Positions 9,083-16,388 of a DNA stretch of 64,000 nt are shown piece after piece. The position numbers and the translations under genes are program-made. The stretch lies in contig JAGAVJ010000045.1 of assembly GCA_017942005.1 (NCBI GenBank), positions 1 through 64,000 of the forward strand, given 5' to 3'. Each line of letters begins with the position of its first letter. Position 1 is the first letter of the stretch. Origin of the DNA: Clostridia bacterium (GTDB lineage: Bacteria; Bacillota; Clostridia; Oscillospirales; CAG-272). The notes under the pieces are model-generated. The model was given only the letters and a program-made list of their open reading frames with translations. It was not told where the DNA came from and searched no databases.

Positions 9083-11809
9083 TTATCGATTTTTTGCGTT
9101 GATCTGCGCAATGGTTTCTCTGACTTCTTCTGCTGTACTGCATACTTCCTCATATAATCCCAATGCAGACATACGCTGGGCGCCATGCCCCATGACAATG
9201 ACCTGTTCCAGCGCATCAGAAGTCGCTACACGAACACGATGTTCTTTGCCGATATCATAGGTGACTTTTTCAATATAGGTATCCGCGGTTTCATGAGAAC
9301 GGGTATAAATGACATACATACCGGCATGCCGTTCAACCGAACCGCGGCCGTCCCGGACACGGTATGCATCAAACACACAAATCAGGTTGCATTTTTTATA
9401 CCCTTGATAATTGGAGAGAATATGGATGAGCGTCTGCCGTGCAAGGTCAAGAGAATCCCGTGCCATGCGCTTCAATTCATCCCATGCAAAAATAATATTA
9501 TATCCGTCGACCAAAAGGTATTCTTCCTCGGGGTCAAGCAGCTTCATATAGGTTTCCCGCGTCGGTGACAGTTCTGTGACCGGAGGCGGCGGAACAAAAA
9601 TAGAACGCGGTGAAATTGGACCATAGGTGCGTTCAAATATGGTTTTCAGTTCGCGGTCTTCTTCTACCATATCCGCATATGTGTATGGACGTGTATAGGA
9701 GGTACCGCGTCTGGTACTGAAAGAAGGGGAAGACGAACGATCTTTTATTTTTCTATTGGCAGGTTCTGCTTTTGTGAGTTCTGCTGCCTTTTTGCGTGTA
9801 AGAACACTTTCCACATGCATACAGTCATCAGACTTGTCCCACGGAATATGGATGCTGCTCCCTTGATGGCAGAAAACAGAATCAGAAGGGAAATAGACGT
9901 CATGTTCCGGTGCATAACCGGTTGCTGCTACGACAGCTTCCTGCTCCGGACACGGCGCATATCCGTGAAACGTCAGCGAGATGTGACCGCGTCCGCACGT
10001 GTAGGTCTGTACCTCTAACGGATAGGGTTTGTTTTCCGGCGGGAATGCATGCATTTTCGCGGCAGGAGCACAGCCGCAGAGTACCGCCATACCGGTTGCT
10101 TCCTCCATTTCCACCGGTTTCAGGGTTGCCGCCATCAGCTGTAAATCGGAAATTGCACGGCCGGCACAGTCCTGTGGAAGCACCATGCGGAATTCATACC
10201 ACGGCTCCAGCAGCACACAAAGCTTGTCCCGCCGTGCTTTCATCAATCCCTGACGAAGGGCACGTACCGCAGCCTCCAGAAAATCGCCGCCTTCCGTATG
10301 CTTGATGTGCGCTCTGCCGCCGCATAAAATGATCCGCATATCGGTCAAAGCTGCTCCGACCAGTACACCAATCGGCAATGCTTCTTCCAGCTGAGAGAGA
10401 ATCAATCGCTGCCAGTTCCGCGCCAATAGATTCTCCGGAACAATCGAATCAAAAACGATACCGCCCCCGGGTTCTCCCGGTTCCAATAACAAATGCACCT
10501 CTGCGTAATGCCGCAGCGGTTCAAAATGTCCGGCGCACGCAACAGGCGCGGAAATGGTTTCTTTATACACAATGCTTCCTTGATCAAATGTGACATCAAT
10601 TCCGAAGCGGGATAAAATCATATGATGCAGCACGTCCATCTGGATTTCACCCATCAGAGAAATATGAATTTCTCCGGTCGTCTGGTGTAATGTCAGATGA
10701 AGCATGGGGTCTTCTTCTTCCAATTGGAACAGTTTTGCAAAGGTTTCTCTGACGGGTGTTCCCGTCGGAAGACCGATACGATATGTCAGTACCGGCTGCA
10801 ATACCGGAGCAGGCGCATCCTCTTCTGCGCCAAGTCCGTTTCCGGGAAATGCATGAGACAGCCCTGTTACACAGCAGACGTCACCACTTGAAACCGATTC
10901 AACCACCTTATACTTTTCCCCGGAATAAATGCGTATCTGGTCAATCTTCTCTTTCCAAATGTCCTGTGTATTGTCCTCTGTGTCTGGGACATCGTCGCTT
11001 TTTCGATTGGATAATACCGTCTTTACTTTCAAGCTGCCGCCTGTGATTTTCAAATACGTTAATCTGTTTCCATGCGGATCCCGCCCGATTTTAATCACCC
11101 GTGCGGCAAAGGCTGCTTTATACGCCGGCTCCAGTGTATAGAGATCAAGCGCCTTTAACAGCGATGCAACCCCCTCCAGTTTTAGTGCAGAACCGAAATA
11201 GCACGGAAACACCTCACGTCTGGAAATGGATTGTGTCAGAGAACGGTTGGACAGTTTCCCCTCGTTTAAATATTCCTCCATCAAAAACTCCGAATTCATT
11301 GCAGCCTGTTCGTCAAAAACACCTCTGTCTTCCTCTGCCAATGTAAAATCAACACAAAACGGAGAAAGCTTTGCATGCAATTCTTCCATTCGGCTTTGTC
11401 GGTCAAATCCGGGTAAATCGGTTTTATTGATAAAGAGAAATGTGGGAATGCCATTCTGACGCAGCAGCCGCCACAGTGTTTCCGTATGCACCTGTACGCC
11501 GTCTACAGCACTGACCACAAGAATGGCATAGTCCAGTACAGAAAGGGTCCGTTCCATTTCAGATGAAAAATCTGTATGACCCGGTGTGTCAAGCAGATAC
11601 ATTGTCATACCCGGTATTTCAAGAACAGCCTGCTTTGAAAAGATGGTGATACCGCGGGAACGCTCCATTTCTCCCGTATCAAGAAAGGTATCGCGGTGGT
11701 CTACCCGTCCAAGCGTCCGGATACAGCCGCAAAGATAGAGCAAACCTTCCGAAAGTGTCGTTTTTCCGGCATCAACATGTGCAAGAATTCCCAGAGTCAA
11801 TTTTTTCAT
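9083..11809 (-). CDS. Ribosomal-protection-type GTPase fused to Rae1/YacP-like NYN endoribonuclease
   Basis: This 908-residue protein joins two ribosome-acting modules. Residues 1 to about 680 form an EF-G/TetM-like translational GTPase: G1 AHVDAGKT (10-17), G2 RGIT (52-55), G3 DTPGH (74-78), G4 NKTD (128-131), then domains II-V. A charged, Ser/Arg-rich linker follows. Residues about 761-908 match YacP/Rae1: LLVDGYNIIFAW, VFDAYRV, ETADTY, VATSDALEQ and GHGAQRMSA, with the expected acidic residues at 768, 814, 843 and 865. In B. subtilis, Rae1 is a free protein that cuts mRNA in the ribosomal A site; TetM-class GTPases bind the same region. I infer a factor that engages A-site-blocked ribosomes and cleaves mRNA. 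Tetracycline resistance is possible but not shown. Confidence 0.9.
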   Translation of the reverse strand: MKKLTLGILAHVDAGKTTLSEGLLYLCGCIRTLGRVDHRDTFLDTGEMERSRGITIFSKQAVLEIPGMTMYLLDTPGHTDFSSEMERTLSVLDYAILVVSAVDGVQVHTETLWRLLRQNGIPTFLFINKTDLPGFDRQSRMEELHAKLSPFCVDFTLAEEDRGVFDEQAAMNSEFLMEEYLNEGKLSNRSLTQSISRREVFPCYFGSALKLEGVASLLKALDLYTLEPAYKAAFAARVIKIGRDPHGNRLTYLKITGGSLKVKTVLSNRKSDDVPDTEDNTQDIWKEKIDQIRIYSGEKYKVVESVSSGDVCCVTGLSHAFPGNGLGAEEDAPAPVLQPVLTYRIGLPTGTPVRETFAKLFQLEEEDPMLHLTLHQTTGEIHISLMGEIQMDVLHHMILSRFGIDVTFDQGSIVYKETISAPVACAGHFEPLRHYAEVHLLLEPGEPGGGIVFDSIVPENLLARNWQRLILSQLEEALPIGVLVGAALTDMRIILCGGRAHIKHTEGGDFLEAAVRALRQGLMKARRDKLCVLLEPWYEFRMVLPQDCAGRAISDLQLMAATLKPVEMEEATGMAVLCGCAPAAKMHAFPPENKPYPLEVQTYTCGRGHISLTFHGYAPCPEQEAVVAATGYAPEHDVYFPSDSVFCHQGSSIHIPWDKSDDCMHVESVLTRKKAAELTKAEPANRKIKDRSSSPSFSTRRGTSYTRPYTYADMVEEDRELKTIFERTYGPISPRSIFVPPPPVTELSPTRETYMKLLDPEEEYLLVDGYNIIFAWDELKRMARDSLDLARQTLIHILSNYQGYKKCNLICVFDAYRVRDGRGSVERHAGMYVIYTRSHETADTYIEKVTYDIGKEHRVRVATSDALEQVIVMGHGAQRMSALGLYEEVCSTAEEVRETIAQINAKNR

Positions 11810-11961
11810 CAGTTACATTCATCCTATGATTATTTGATTGATACTTCATTTTATGTGCTGTTATCATTGCTTTCTGCTATAGTATACCATATAATTTCAA
11901 AAAAAGCATCTGTTTTGATAAAATCGTTACGTAAAATTCACAAGCATAAAGGATGCAAAAA

Positions 11962-11998
11962 GGGGGCTGCTGCAAATTTCCAATTTGCAGCAGCCCCC
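11962..11998. terminator. GGCTGCTGCAA-type terminator palindrome (copy 2)
   Basis: GGGGGCTGCTGCAAAT pairs perfectly with ATTTGCAGCAGCCCCC. It lies between the sialidase stop (12011, minus strand) and the GTPase-nuclease gene, and can end minus-strand transcription of the sialic-acid operon. Confidence 0.8.
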
Positions 11999-12010
11999 TA
12001 TATTATGAAA

Positions 12011-13147
12011 TCAACGGTCATTCAAACGCCATCTGGTATACAGAATAGAAGGTTTGCCATCATAACGGTCTTCCTCTGCATGATACACTTTTTGATAATA
12101 TACCGTCATAATGCTGCCGTCATCCAGTTCGACAGACGCAGGATATCCAAGATCACCATCTTTGGCACGGTCATCAATGTTATACTCCTCGGTCCATGTT
12201 TCTCCATTGTCATAAGAAACAATCGCACGCTCACCAAATGGAGGCGTCCGTCTGCCAAAGGAGCAGATGATCGCACCGCTGGAATGACGCAGTAAATGGG
12301 GAGGAGAACCGCAAACACCGAGATTCCGCCATTCACTCCATGTTTTCCCTTGATCCTTTGATACGGTCGTGTAAATGGTAAAGGAAGGCGTAATGTTCTG
12401 TCCCTCTGCGCGGATAGCGCCGAGCAATGTTCCGTCCGGAAGCTCTATGACATGCGGTTCATGGAAATTATCCCAAATGGCATCGTCCGGTTTTTTACAG
12501 GAACCGCGCCGTTCCCACGTATATCCGCCGTCCTTTGATGCATACGCCGCAATGGTTTTTGCTTCCTCCGGCTGCGCCAATGCAGCGGAATAGTGTTCTT
12601 TGCCTAAATAAATCAATGTACCGTCTGCACAAAGGTTGGGACCGTGCGGTGCGGAAATCGGAAGCTGAATCGGGTCGCTCCATGTATAACCGTAATCCTC
12701 CGAAATACGGATAAAGGAGCCGCCGTGCGCATACTGCGGCTTCAGGTAGGGGTACATCGACAGCATACCAATGGTTGGTGCGGCTTCAATCGGCTGTGCA
12801 GAATTTTTAATACCGACAAAATACTCCTTCATATAAGTCTCTGCCGGGTGGGAAAACCAGGTGATCAGCATTCTGCCATTGCCCATATATAGAATTCCTG
12901 CATCACGGTCGTCAAGATACGTATCGTTTACAATAATCGGGGGTGACCATGTCTTTCCGTTGTTTTTACTGACATACATCGCATTTTTGCCGAATGGGCA
13001 GACATGCTCTGTGCGGAAGGACGATGCAACCGCGTACAATACGCCATTTTCGTCCCGTGCAACAGAAGGCCATCCCTGATAGCCAAATAAATTTCCCTGT
13101 ACACGGTTGACAATTCCGTGTTCTTTTGTCGTTGGATTCAGCAGCAT
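12011..13147 (-). CDS. Sialidase-like BNR/Asp-box protein without signal peptide
   Basis: This 378-residue protein has five Asp-box motifs: SKNNGKTW (60), SEDYGYTW (149), SKDGGYTW (204), SKDQGKTW (263) and SYDNGETW (311). They mark a six-bladed sialidase/BNR beta-propeller, close to exo-alpha-sialidases (GH33-like). It should release terminal sialic acid, in keeping with NanA in the same operon. There is no signal peptide, lipobox or anchor, so it probably acts in the cytoplasm on imported sialosides. AAGGAG precedes the ATG, and a hairpin lies just before that in the 148-base gap from the AraC gene. The catalytic Arg/Tyr set cannot be assigned by eye, so another BNR activity is possible. Confidence 0.85.
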   Translation of the reverse strand: MLLNPTTKEHGIVNRVQGNLFGYQGWPSVARDENGVLYAVASSFRTEHVCPFGKNAMYVSKNNGKTWSPPIIVNDTYLDDRDAGILYMGNGRMLITWFSHPAETYMKEYFVGIKNSAQPIEAAPTIGMLSMYPYLKPQYAHGGSFIRISEDYGYTWSDPIQLPISAPHGPNLCADGTLIYLGKEHYSAALAQPEEAKTIAAYASKDGGYTWERRGSCKKPDDAIWDNFHEPHVIELPDGTLLGAIRAEGQNITPSFTIYTTVSKDQGKTWSEWRNLGVCGSPPHLLRHSSGAIICSFGRRTPPFGERAIVSYDNGETWTEEYNIDDRAKDGDLGYPASVELDDGSIMTVYYQKVYHAEEDRYDGKPSILYTRWRLNDR

Positions 13148-13163
13148 GAATTGTTCTCCTTAC

Positions 13164-13191
13164 AAGGCATCCACATGTTCCCGGATGCCTT
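13164..13191. promoter_or_regulatory. Intra-operon hairpin before the sialidase gene
   Basis: AAGGCATCC pairs with GGATGCCTT. On the transcribed strand it lies just before the sialidase ribosome binding site and lacks a downstream T run there, so an mRNA-processing or stability role is more likely than termination. Confidence 0.5.
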
Positions 13192-13295
13192 TAAAATTTT
13201 TTAGTTTTTCACAGCAGGTATTAATAACAATTTTTATATATGGAGGATAAAGGTTGATATTGCTACGCAGCGCTTCGTTTTATATGTAACTGCAA

Positions 13296-14234
13296 TTATT
13301 TCGATTTTCGCCATGAAATCGGCGTCATATGAAAATAACGGCGGAATGCAACAAAAAACGCCGACGGCGCATTGTATCCAACGCGATATGCAATTTCTTC
13401 TGTTGACAAATTGGTGCGAGACAGCAGCTTGCAGGCATGATTCAAACGAACCTCTGTCAGTTTTTCCTTGAATGTCATTCCAAAATATTCGGTAAACAGA
13501 CGGCTGGTCTGCCGTGTGCTGAGATTCAGATGTGAGGCAAGCTGTGCTTCTGTAATCGGTTCCATATAGGAATTGTCCATAAACAATAAGATTTTGGTTT
13601 CTCTTGCGCTTCGGCTGTCCGTTTTGGAAAGAGGATATGTATTTAAAAGATTATTATTTTGCAAATCTTCCTTCCATATCGTTTCCTCACTGCCTTCCAG
13701 CACACGTATCAATCCCACAAGAAAAATACGCATATAGGATTCTGCCATATCCTGACTGCCTGTATGTTCCAGAGACAGCTCACAGCGGATATGTTCAAGC
13801 AGCCCTGCCGCTTCGGGATAATACAGCAAACCGGTATGATCTTTGCATTGTGCCGACCGCTGGAAGAGCTTACAGCAGGATGCATACGGTTCTGCGGTCT
13901 TTATGCCGATATCCTGTGGTATCTTTGATATCTTTAACCGAAAGGTCTGTTTGAGAAGTTGTGACTGCATTTCATTTTGTACAATGTTGTGATAACAAAA
14001 CGGCGGTATGATATATGCATATCCGCAAGGTAATGTCACAATACAGTCCGAATCTGACAGTTCTATTTGCAGCGGTTCATTAATTGCAAGATGTACCTCA
14101 TATTCCATATGCATATGCGGCTCATATGGAATGCGGTCCGGATAGAAAAAACCGGTGTCAAGTATACAGGTAAACTGCGTATCCGCAACGGGAACAGATA
14201 ACTCTTTGTGAAGAAACGGAGAAAAATATTCCAT
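13296..14234 (-). CDS. AraC-family regulator of the sialic-acid operon
   Basis: This 312-residue protein has an N-terminal cupin-like sensing domain (motif PYEPHMHMEYEVHLAI, about residues 35-50) and a C-terminal AraC double helix-turn-helix: LASHLNLSTRQTSRLFTEYF and IAYRVGYNAPSAFFVAFRRY, ending HMTPISWRKSK. AraC proteins of this layout bind a sugar through the cupin and activate nearby catabolic genes. The gene starts 11 bases after nanA, so the regulator is probably part of the operon it controls. The effector is likely sialic acid or N-acetylmannosamine, inferred from context only. Confidence 0.92.
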   Translation of the reverse strand: MEYFSPFLHKELSVPVADTQFTCILDTGFFYPDRIPYEPHMHMEYEVHLAINEPLQIELSDSDCIVTLPCGYAYIIPPFCYHNIVQNEMQSQLLKQTFRLKISKIPQDIGIKTAEPYASCCKLFQRSAQCKDHTGLLYYPEAAGLLEHIRCELSLEHTGSQDMAESYMRIFLVGLIRVLEGSEETIWKEDLQNNNLLNTYPLSKTDSRSARETKILLFMDNSYMEPITEAQLASHLNLSTRQTSRLFTEYFGMTFKEKLTEVRLNHACKLLSRTNLSTEEIAYRVGYNAPSAFFVAFRRYFHMTPISWRKSK

Positions 14235-14245
14235 ATCCGGGGCGT

Positions 14246-15148
14246 TTAATCCCGCATATAGTCTATACCGAGATTATCAACTGCTCTTTTTTTCAATTCC
14301 GTATACTGCGCAGCTGTCAGCGGCAAAAACGGCGGACGACAGGTTCCGTAGGGAAGACCGCCGATTTCAAGCAGCGCCTTGCATGCAGGCATGACGCCAA
14401 TCGACAGCGCCGCTTCAATGATTTTGTTTGCCTGGCTTTGCAGTGCAAGAGCTTTCTGCATTTCACCCTTATGATAAAAATCATAAATTGCAAGCATTCT
14501 GTCCGCCTGGAAGTTATAGGTTGTGCCGATACCGCCATCTGCTCCCGCGGCAAGACCGGACAGCAGCATTTCATCGGAACCGTTATAAAAAATCTGATCC
14601 GGATGATCTGCACGCAGCCGCTCCAGCTGGAAGAAATCGGATGCTGTAAATTTCATACCGCCAATGTTGGGAATGGAAAGCAATTCATGCAGCTGTGCTG
14701 CATTCAATGTCATTCCAGTACGCGCCGGAATATTATAAATGATAACGGGGAGGGTTGTTTCCGCAGCAAGCGCTTCATAAAAATACTTCACTTCCGCAAA
14801 GGAATATGCAAAATACAGGGGTGTTACAGAAGATAAGGCATTGGCACCGGCAGCCTCTGCATGTCTTGCAAGCGTTAGGGTGTCACGCATTCCGGCGCAG
14901 CCGACATGTGTAATGACAGTGATTTTCTTTTGTGTTTCCGCAAGAACTGCTTCTAAAAGCTGTTTTCGTTCTTCAACAGAACATAGCAGCATTTCACCGG
15001 ATGAGCCTCCTACATACAAACCGTGTACACCCTGCTTCATCAGATGACATACCAAACGACGGACACGGACGGTATCAATTCCACTGCCGTCATCGGTAAA
15101 TCCTGTCATCAAAGCAGGCATAATACCCTTTAAAAATTCCTGTTTCAT
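14246..15148 (-). CDS. nanA: N-acetylneuraminate lyase
   Basis: This 300-residue DapA/NanA-superfamily aldolase has the phosphate/carboxylate loop GGSSGE (47-52), Tyr138 in YNIPARTG, the Schiff-base lysine Lys166 in GGMKFTASDF, and GGIGTTYNF. The numbering is one residue off the E. coli NanA Tyr137/Lys165 pair. The TYN motif and the sialidase in the operon favour sialic-acid lyase (N-acetylneuraminate to N-acetylmannosamine plus pyruvate) over dihydrodipicolinate synthase. AAGGAG lies before the ATG. No nanE or nanK is in the window. Confidence 0.88.
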   Translation of the reverse strand: MKQEFLKGIMPALMTGFTDDGSGIDTVRVRRLVCHLMKQGVHGLYVGGSSGEMLLCSVEERKQLLEAVLAETQKKITVITHVGCAGMRDTLTLARHAEAAGANALSSVTPLYFAYSFAEVKYFYEALAAETTLPVIIYNIPARTGMTLNAAQLHELLSIPNIGGMKFTASDFFQLERLRADHPDQIFYNGSDEMLLSGLAAGADGGIGTTYNFQADRMLAIYDFYHKGEMQKALALQSQANKIIEAALSIGVMPACKALLEIGGLPYGTCRPPFLPLTAAQYTELKKRAVDNLGIDYMRD

Positions 15149-15202
15149 CGTAATTCTCCTTCTGGTTTATTTGTTGACCGTATGTTTTATGTTCAAATTT
15201 TT

Positions 15203-16291
15203 TTATGTATGAAAAAGATGTACCGATGCAGCCCAGTCAAGATACGCGTCCGCAGCAGCACGGCATCCCGCAGCGTTCGGGTGACCACCCCAAACAGAGC
15301 AGTGTTCCATCGGCGGTTCTTGTCCAAGAACACGTGCAAAATCGAAGACATGGTCTGCACCCGTGATTTCACCATTCCGTATGGCAGCATTGACCACATA
15401 CCAATTCTCCATGGCTTGACCTGTCATATCAAACGGCGGAACCGTAAAAAGAATGACACGGCACCCGGCATCAGAAAGCGCACACACGATCATCTGTAAA
15501 TCTGAGGTCAATTCTTTTGCAGTACGACCGCGCAGAAGATCATTGACTCCAAAGCAGACGTTGACATCGTCACAGGTTTTTGCACGCGCAAGCCATCCCG
15601 CATCTGTTGCGGCATCGTATGCCCGTGCATATCCGATACCGAGATTCCACACGCTGTAGGCTTTAGGCAGACTTTTGGCAATCACAGCCACCCAATGGGT
15701 ATAACTGTCCATCTCGGTACCGCAGCCTTGTGTGATGGAGTCGCCGATGAATGCAATCCGCTGTTCAATCCTCCGATTAGAACCGATCATCAATGGGACG
15801 GGAATCTGTTTATCGGGTACCCATGTTCCATCCTGCAATGAACAAATCGGGATATTAATCTCTTCATGATATGGAAAACATGTCCCGCATATTGTGACTT
15901 CATAACACAAAACATCGTCTGCATTTGCGGTCAATGCTACCGGATCACAGCAAAAAACGGTATTCCCTGAAACGTGCTTCGTTGACAAGCCGTCAAATGT
16001 ACAGGTATGCCATTCCGCTGGTTCTTCCATAGAAGCAGAACACCGTCCTATACGCATTTTCTGAATTTCCCATGTACCGCCAACCTTGTTGGCATGACCG
16101 AGACTGCCATCTCCGTATGTAGAATCGGCAGTATTGGAAAACAGCAGTGCAAACTGTGTCCCACCATGCGATAACGTATAATAACAGCGTCCGGTTTTTG
16201 ATACGGGAACAGCGTGATTTGCAATCAACTGGTTTGCACTGCCAGCGGTACAATCAGAAGAAAACGTTTTGTAAAATTCAGCAGCTGTCAT
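15203..16291 (-). CDS. SGNH/GDSL hydrolase, possible sialate O-acetylesterase
   Basis: The C-terminal half holds SGNH blocks: FIGDSITQGCG with the catalytic Ser, a Gly in NLGIGYARA, GVND, and HPNAAG with the catalytic His. An N-terminal beta-sandwich domain of about 170 residues precedes it, an arrangement seen in carbohydrate esterases. Being first in an operon with nanA and sialidase, it probably removes O-acetyl groups from sialic acids; this is inference. The start is uncertain: ATG 16291, ATG 16303 and ATG 16342 are in frame, none with a strong ribosome site. There is no signal peptide. A near-consensus promoter lies about 100 bases upstream. Confidence 0.82.
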   Translation of the reverse strand: MTAAEFYKTFSSDCTAGSANQLIANHAVPVSKTGRCYYTLSHGGTQFALLFSNTADSTYGDGSLGHANKVGGTWEIQKMRIGRCSASMEEPAEWHTCTFDGLSTKHVSGNTVFCCDPVALTANADDVLCYEVTICGTCFPYHEEINIPICSLQDGTWVPDKQIPVPLMIGSNRRIEQRIAFIGDSITQGCGTEMDSYTHWVAVIAKSLPKAYSVWNLGIGYARAYDAATDAGWLARAKTCDDVNVCFGVNDLLRGRTAKELTSDLQMIVCALSDAGCRVILFTVPPFDMTGQAMENWYVVNAAIRNGEITGADHVFDFARVLGQEPPMEHCSVWGGHPNAAGCRAAADAYLDWAASVHLFHT

Positions 16292-16388
16292 ATAGAAAAC
16301 CATCTCTTTTGTTTTAAAAAAGAGCGTTCCTTTCATTGTCATTGTGGAAAATCGGCTTTTCGCCGAAAGCAGAAATTTTTATGTATTG

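Follow-up and report, generated by a model that had tools for sequence, protein, structure and literature searches.

A conserved clostridial fusion of a TetM-like translational GTPase to a Rae1-type nuclease domain, and its relation to standalone Rae1

Introduction

Rae1 (YacP) of Bacillus subtilis is a ribosome-associated endonuclease that acts on mRNA in the A site (PMC6613710, PMC12320835), and one loss-of-function suppressor recovered in that organism, R166P, alters its C-terminal tail (PMC6613710). TetM-class factors also occupy the A site (PMC8161019), and the TetM of B. toyonensis (Btoyo_0322) has been proven experimentally, its knockout lowering the tetracycline MIC from 16 to 1 (PMC5209696). 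The two kinds of domain have been seen in one protein before: in ten Clostridiales species, Tet proteins were described that carry a YacP-like NYN domain, and a resistance mechanism was suggested for them (Atkinson 2015, BMC Genomics 16:78, PMC4342817).

Here we analyse one such gene, found in a 64,000-nucleotide stretch of DNA from a Clostridia bacterium of the order Oscillospirales (GCA_017942005.1, contig JAGAVJ010000045.1; hereafter the window). A sequence-only reading of this DNA had left it undecided whether such fusions had been studied; their architecture was reported in 2015 (PMC4342817), and we found no experimental study of the fusion in the open-access literature. What we add is comparative evidence on what the fusion replaces and how it has changed: NYN_YacP is fused in this order, stands alone in most other Bacillota, and in no sampled genome takes both forms.

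Results

The fusion is encoded on the minus strand at 9083-11809 by a single intact open reading frame of 908 amino acids, with its ATG at 11809 and its stop at 9083-9085, while the plus strand of the same interval is riddled with stop codons. The sequence-only reading had described one unbroken 908-residue frame joining an EF-G/TetM-type GTPase to a C-terminal YacP/Rae1 NYN domain; frame and joining were both borne out, by Pfam, structure and sequence matches, and we could add the strand, which it had not given, and locate every motif that it had named (the G motifs, VDGYN, VFDAY, TADTY and ATSD). Residues 1-665 (9815-11809) form the translational GTPase module, in which Pfam, alignment, an AlphaFold model and structure matches together delineate the EF-G/TetM domains G, II, III, IV and V followed by a subfamily-specific C-terminal extension, SVFCxxG...W, at residues 644-657. 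Pfam placed GTP_EFTU at residues 4-224 (1.2e-48) and found EFG_III, EFG_IV and EFG_C, reaching residue 623; domain III scored barely above its cut-off and domain II below its own, though the structure covers it. The NYN_YacP/Rae1 nuclease domain occupies residues 763-908 (9086-9523), the Pfam match spanning 765-906 with an E-value of 2.4e-46 and 158.2 bits against a curated cut-off of 24.6. Between the modules lies a linker of residues ~666-762 (9524-9814), the fastest-evolving part of the protein. The AlphaFold2 model, built with 68 relatives in the alignment, has a mean pLDDT of 87 and shows two confident modules with this partly disordered linker between them, in which pLDDT falls below 50 at 682-717 and 733-758 and a helix is predicted at 712-729.

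Upstream, a strong intrinsic-terminator-like hairpin (11961-11999, minus strand; 18 pairs and a T run, identified by consensus match) sits between the fusion gene and a sialidase-like gene, and because it separates the two, the fusion gene probably has its own transcription unit, starting there. The upstream genes on the same strand (12011-16342) encode a sialidase-like BNR protein, an AraC-type regulator, a DHDPS/NanA-type lyase and a GDSL esterase, and may together serve the utilisation of sialic acid.

The fusion occurred in one frame in all 20 relatives sampled from other genera, families and classes of Bacillota, at 40-54% identity, and a scan of GTDB found relatives on at least 589 contigs; on these two grounds it is far beyond chance. 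Named loci among the GTDB relatives came from Oscillospiraceae, Lachnospiraceae, Ruminococcus and other Clostridia, and 67 of the 80 GTDB loci that we kept contained a clean full-length frame. With the window protein and the 20 fetched fusions, these 67 make up the set of 88 proteins used below. The architecture was retained in 88 of 88 full-length relatives, which rules out a frame or assembly artefact. GTPase residues K16, T17, D74, P76, G77, K129 and D131 are invariant throughout the set, H78, the catalytic histidine of the PGH motif, is kept in 87 of the 88, and NYN residues D768, N771, D814, D843 and D865 are invariant in all. Within the genus, identity to two congeners is highest in the NYN domain (87% and 83%), lower in the GTPase (80% and 74%) and lowest in the linker (62% and 64%); synonymous divergence was saturated, and the selection test therefore used dN alone. 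Judged by their sequences, both modules are intact and constrained. The sequence-only reading had pointed to loss of the acidic nuclease residues in homologues, and to separate starts for the two halves, as the places where a fused nuclease might fail. None of those residues was lost in the 88 fusions, and the linkers of the 20 fetched fusions have no conserved internal methionine from which the NYN half could be expressed separately, so that on the second point only one same-genus MAG stands on the other side. In that congener (G053; L232:7584-10283, minus strand; 78% identical) a single in-frame TAG lies in the linker between GTPase and NYN, and may be a genuine split of the gene or an error in the MAG.

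The nuclease half matched the B. subtilis YacP/Rae1 structures 5MQ8 and 5MQ9 over ~140 residues (E 2.8e-22); PDB structure re-ranking of the whole model listed no Rae1 chain because the GTPase fills the list, so this match rests on sequence. The catalytic aspartates D768, D814, D843 and D865 are retained in 24 of 24 standalone Rae1 proteins as in 88 of 88 fusions, and the further Rae1-family residues T841, E847, S864 and Q869 are nearly invariant across both forms. The C-terminus differs: a hydrophobic-Arg-Arg tail is present in 36 of 42 standalone Rae1 proteins, with near-variants in three more, against one of 88 fusions, and the NYN domain of the window protein ends short of it, so that the basic tail has been lost in the fusion. 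We infer that this tail serves ribosome docking in Rae1. After the third catalytic aspartate many of the standalone proteins (L064-L093, L291-L308) read DERIE and the fusions DxYIE, and fused NYN domains are the more acidic, with a mean net charge of -4.6 against -0.3 for standalone Rae1. A Rae1-like nuclease is also present on Clostridioides difficile plasmids: twelve PLSDB records of 97-150 kb (for example NZ_CP149721.1:48824-49228) carry an NYN protein ~44% identical to the fusion NYN.

NYN_YacP was found in 47 of the 146 genomes of a family sample, 79 of 197 at the level of the order and 219 of 398 across the phylum. The frames of the family and order samples were of the long fusion type, the few exceptions being truncated, split by a stop or cut by a contig end, and no intact standalone frame of ~170 residues was found in either sample (146 and 197 genomes). 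In the phylum sample frame lengths were bimodal, almost all of the matches listed being 169-302 or 874-914 residues long. Fused and standalone forms occurred together in no sampled genome; among the two-match genomes that we checked, one had a duplicate standalone gene (G527) and two had contig splits (G292, G620), and the second NYN of G317 was rejected as a weak match, below the cut-off, in a different and unrelated ORF. Standalone rae1 lies directly downstream of rlmB in 24 of 24 cases, whereas rlmB of the window genome (G000:C12:8594-9580) is followed by an unrelated gene, without rae1. The single NYN_YacP of that genome is the fused one, though at 88% completeness the absence of a second is not absolute. 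In these gene inventories the fused form thus occurs instead of standalone Rae1 and not beside it, a pattern that is partly phylogenetic, reflecting a single origin of the fusion and a small number of independent events. Some 60% of the genomes sampled from the order lack both forms, which makes the function dispensable.

In a GTPase tree rooted on EF-G, a branch with SH-aLRT 98 has the fusions together on one side, and an unfused protein of 651 residues (L210, genome G500) joins them at 100; the NYN tree separates fused from standalone domains, also with support of 100. Among 199 Bacillales-type genomes of the order to which G500 belongs, about 17 encode unfused members of the subfamily, ~650 residues long and 40-47% identical to the fusions; G524, which is Paenibacillus-like, and Priestia megaterium (G928, named via its plasmid) encode them too. 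Where read, the members from Bacillales and G524 have the same KHTxGGDF loop III and the same extension, SxFCxKG...W. Standalone Rae1 was encoded in 18 of 18 checked genomes with the unfused GTPase, though Rae1 is common in Bacillales and this proves little alone. The simplest reading is that one fusion event in Clostridia brought together what in Bacilli are two distinct proteins. A homologue in a genome of the same genus as P. megaterium (G902) is split into two adjacent ORFs, L280 and L283. Many Ligilactobacillus salivarius plasmids in PLSDB (for example NZ_CP027645.1:225342-227225) encode a GTPase ~41% identical to L210 that bears the label TetM/TetW/TetO/TetS-family resistance and may be over-annotated.

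The GTPase half matches EF-G, TetM and TetO structures, and model residues 1-658 align with TetM 2-639 (3j25) with a Z-score of 31.2 and an rmsd of 9.6 over 593 residues. It nevertheless scored below the curated cut-off of every Tet model (tet_protect, Tet(M/W/O/S), Tet(Q) and Otr(A)): its best family, tet_protect (NF012153), gave 351 bits against 775, and another score was 241 against 1100, whereas genuine Tet(M), our positive control, passed with 1512 against 1420. Loop III of domain IV, equal in length to that of TetM with no gaps, carries KHTxGGDF, whether or not the member is fused, at the place of TetM's YSPVSTPADF; in the window protein KHTEGGDF (residues 503-510; 10280-10303, minus strand) stands in place of the SPV tip, whose P509 lies at the drug site, and the H, T, G, G, D and F of the signature are invariant in the 88 fusions. 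The SxFCxxG...W extension after domain V is likewise present in unfused members. Two genomes, G156 and G453, encode a genuine ribosomal protection protein (RPP) scoring over its cut-off in addition to the fusion, and the NYN-bearing form is chromosomal save for a few large plasmid-labelled records. The window genome also encodes a second Tet-like GTPase of ~728 residues without NYN (L204; G000:C11:62512-64572, minus strand), with loop III HTHPLDF, a long insert and 481 bits to tet_protect, below the cut-off, which groups with Tet-like proteins of other genomes, apart from the fusion.

Discussion

We think it probable, if by no means assured, that the fusion is this Clostridia lineage's Rae1, permanently joined to a translational GTPase of its own, a member of the EF-G/Tet superfamily that supplies ribosome targeting. 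The GTPase would dock in the factor site of ribosomes whose A site is empty or blocked, its KHTxGGDF loop probing the decoding centre; GTP hydrolysis would then withdraw domain IV and let the tethered NYN domain cut the exposed A-site mRNA, so that tmRNA-type rescue could recover the ribosome and the fragments could decay. In such a scheme the GTPase would take over the ribosome targeting that the Rae1 tail may perform in standalone enzymes, and tetracycline is not the favoured cue. The model has the linker leaving from about the end of TetM's C-terminal extension, and ~95 flexible residues could let the NYN domain reach the A site, though only after domain IV has left, which favours a sequential cleavage timed by the GTPase; the order of events, the trigger and the substrate are our conjecture. 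A more specific version, in which GTP hydrolysis by the Tet-like factor sets the moment at which Rae1 swings into the A site, and in which the nuclease, once fused, shed the tail that had bound it to ribosomes, we advance tentatively and would not yet count on. Several observations weigh against attaching Rae1 function to the fusion: domain IV and a Rae1 domain cannot share the A site, which makes the sequential model an assumption; the missing tail is just as compatible with an NYN domain whose role on the ribosome has changed or gone; the either/or pattern partly reflects kinship; and G053 has its in-frame TAG between the modules.

The closest competitor keeps the function suggested in 2015 (PMC4342817), ribosomal protection against tetracycline or another A-site drug, with the added RNase assisting resistance. 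The GTPase does lie with the Tet proteins at the node that separates them from EF-G (support 100), has tet_protect as its best curated family, and has some relatives that database annotators label TetM/TetW/TetO/TetS family; its loop III has TetM's length, and the changes in that loop alone do not exclude drug release, because a TetM S508A/P509A/V510A triple mutant is still active, as cited in PMC4750697. The idea would gain weight if the B. toyonensis TetM belonged to the unfused sister subfamily. Yet the scores fall far under cut-offs that a real Tet(M) passes, the SPV tip is missing, G156 and G453 already carry a genuine RPP, the NYN-bearing form is mostly chromosomal, and destroying mRNA would be odd for a protein that restores translation; we therefore disfavour tetracycline protection by the fusion and regard it as unlikely. 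The sequence-only reading had proposed a single rescue or quality-control factor for drug- or sequence-stalled ribosomes. Its core fits what we see, a true fusion with both active sites conserved being consistent, as far as the sequences go, with one mRNA-cleaving ribosome factor, but the link to drug-stalled ribosomes fell away on the sub-cut-off scores, the different loop III and the coexistence with genuine RPPs.

The long disordered linker, the lost tail and the change from DERIE to DxYIE could instead suit a GTPase with an EF-G-like translation role of its own, to which the NYN domain is merely tethered on the ribosome, acting on rRNA or tRNA in maturation or quality control and not on A-site mRNA; NYN domains were indeed first predicted to act in rRNA/tRNA maturation, as cited by PMC4342817. 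We hold this to be quite improbable, since the catalytic core and T841, E847, S864 and Q869 hardly differ between fused and standalone forms, standalone B. subtilis Rae1 acts on A-site mRNA (PMC6613710, PMC12320835), and the two forms exclude each other across genomes. The patchy presence (79 of 197 genomes of the order) might also suggest an abortive-infection or other defence effector, a nuclease that the GTPase restrains until phage attack sets it free, but a PADLOC search for defence systems gave no match, no conserved operon partner or neighbourhood emerged across 91 loci, and the gene is single-copy and conserved across many families, leaving this idea with next to no credence. A viral fold search returned generic GTPases only.

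Should the fusion indeed be the Rae1 of these bacteria, a large share of gut Clostridia would rely on one GTPase-nuclease where other Bacillota employ free Rae1 for the same step, and the protein would offer a direct handle on how Rae1, with a possible GTPase partner, recognises paused ribosomes. If cleavage proves to be GTPase-gated, this would be, to our knowledge, the first translational GTPase to license cutting of the mRNA when ribosomes stall, and it would follow that the unfused KHTxGGDF GTPase may be a working partner of free Rae1 in Bacilli. Resistance surveillance is also affected: pipelines name some fusions and unfused relatives TetM/TetW/TetO/TetS resistance, those tested fail the curated cut-offs, and a resistance label on the fusion is annotation only, the drug-resistance half of the earlier inference being unsupported.

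Set against known systems, the protein shares its G motifs and domains II-V with the EF-G/EF2 family of translational GTPases, and with TetM and TetO its domain order, fold, GTPase motifs and loop III length, but differs from the latter in loop III sequence, C-terminal extension, sub-cut-off scores and the presence of a nuclease. With B. subtilis Rae1/YacP it shares the NYN/PIN fold and all acidic residues, although Rae1 is a free protein of ~170 residues encoded beside rlmB with a conserved basic tail, and the fusion lies elsewhere and is tail-less. The unfused ~650-residue members of Bacillales and Paenibacillus lack the NYN domain, and in the genomes checked Rae1 is encoded separately. The clostridial Tet-NYN proteins of Atkinson 2015 have the same domain order in the same ORF and likewise come from Clostridia, so that the window protein is another member of their group, which we extend to hundreds of relatives and for which we describe signatures of the subfamily, a sister that is unfused, the exclusion with standalone Rae1 and the loss of its tail.
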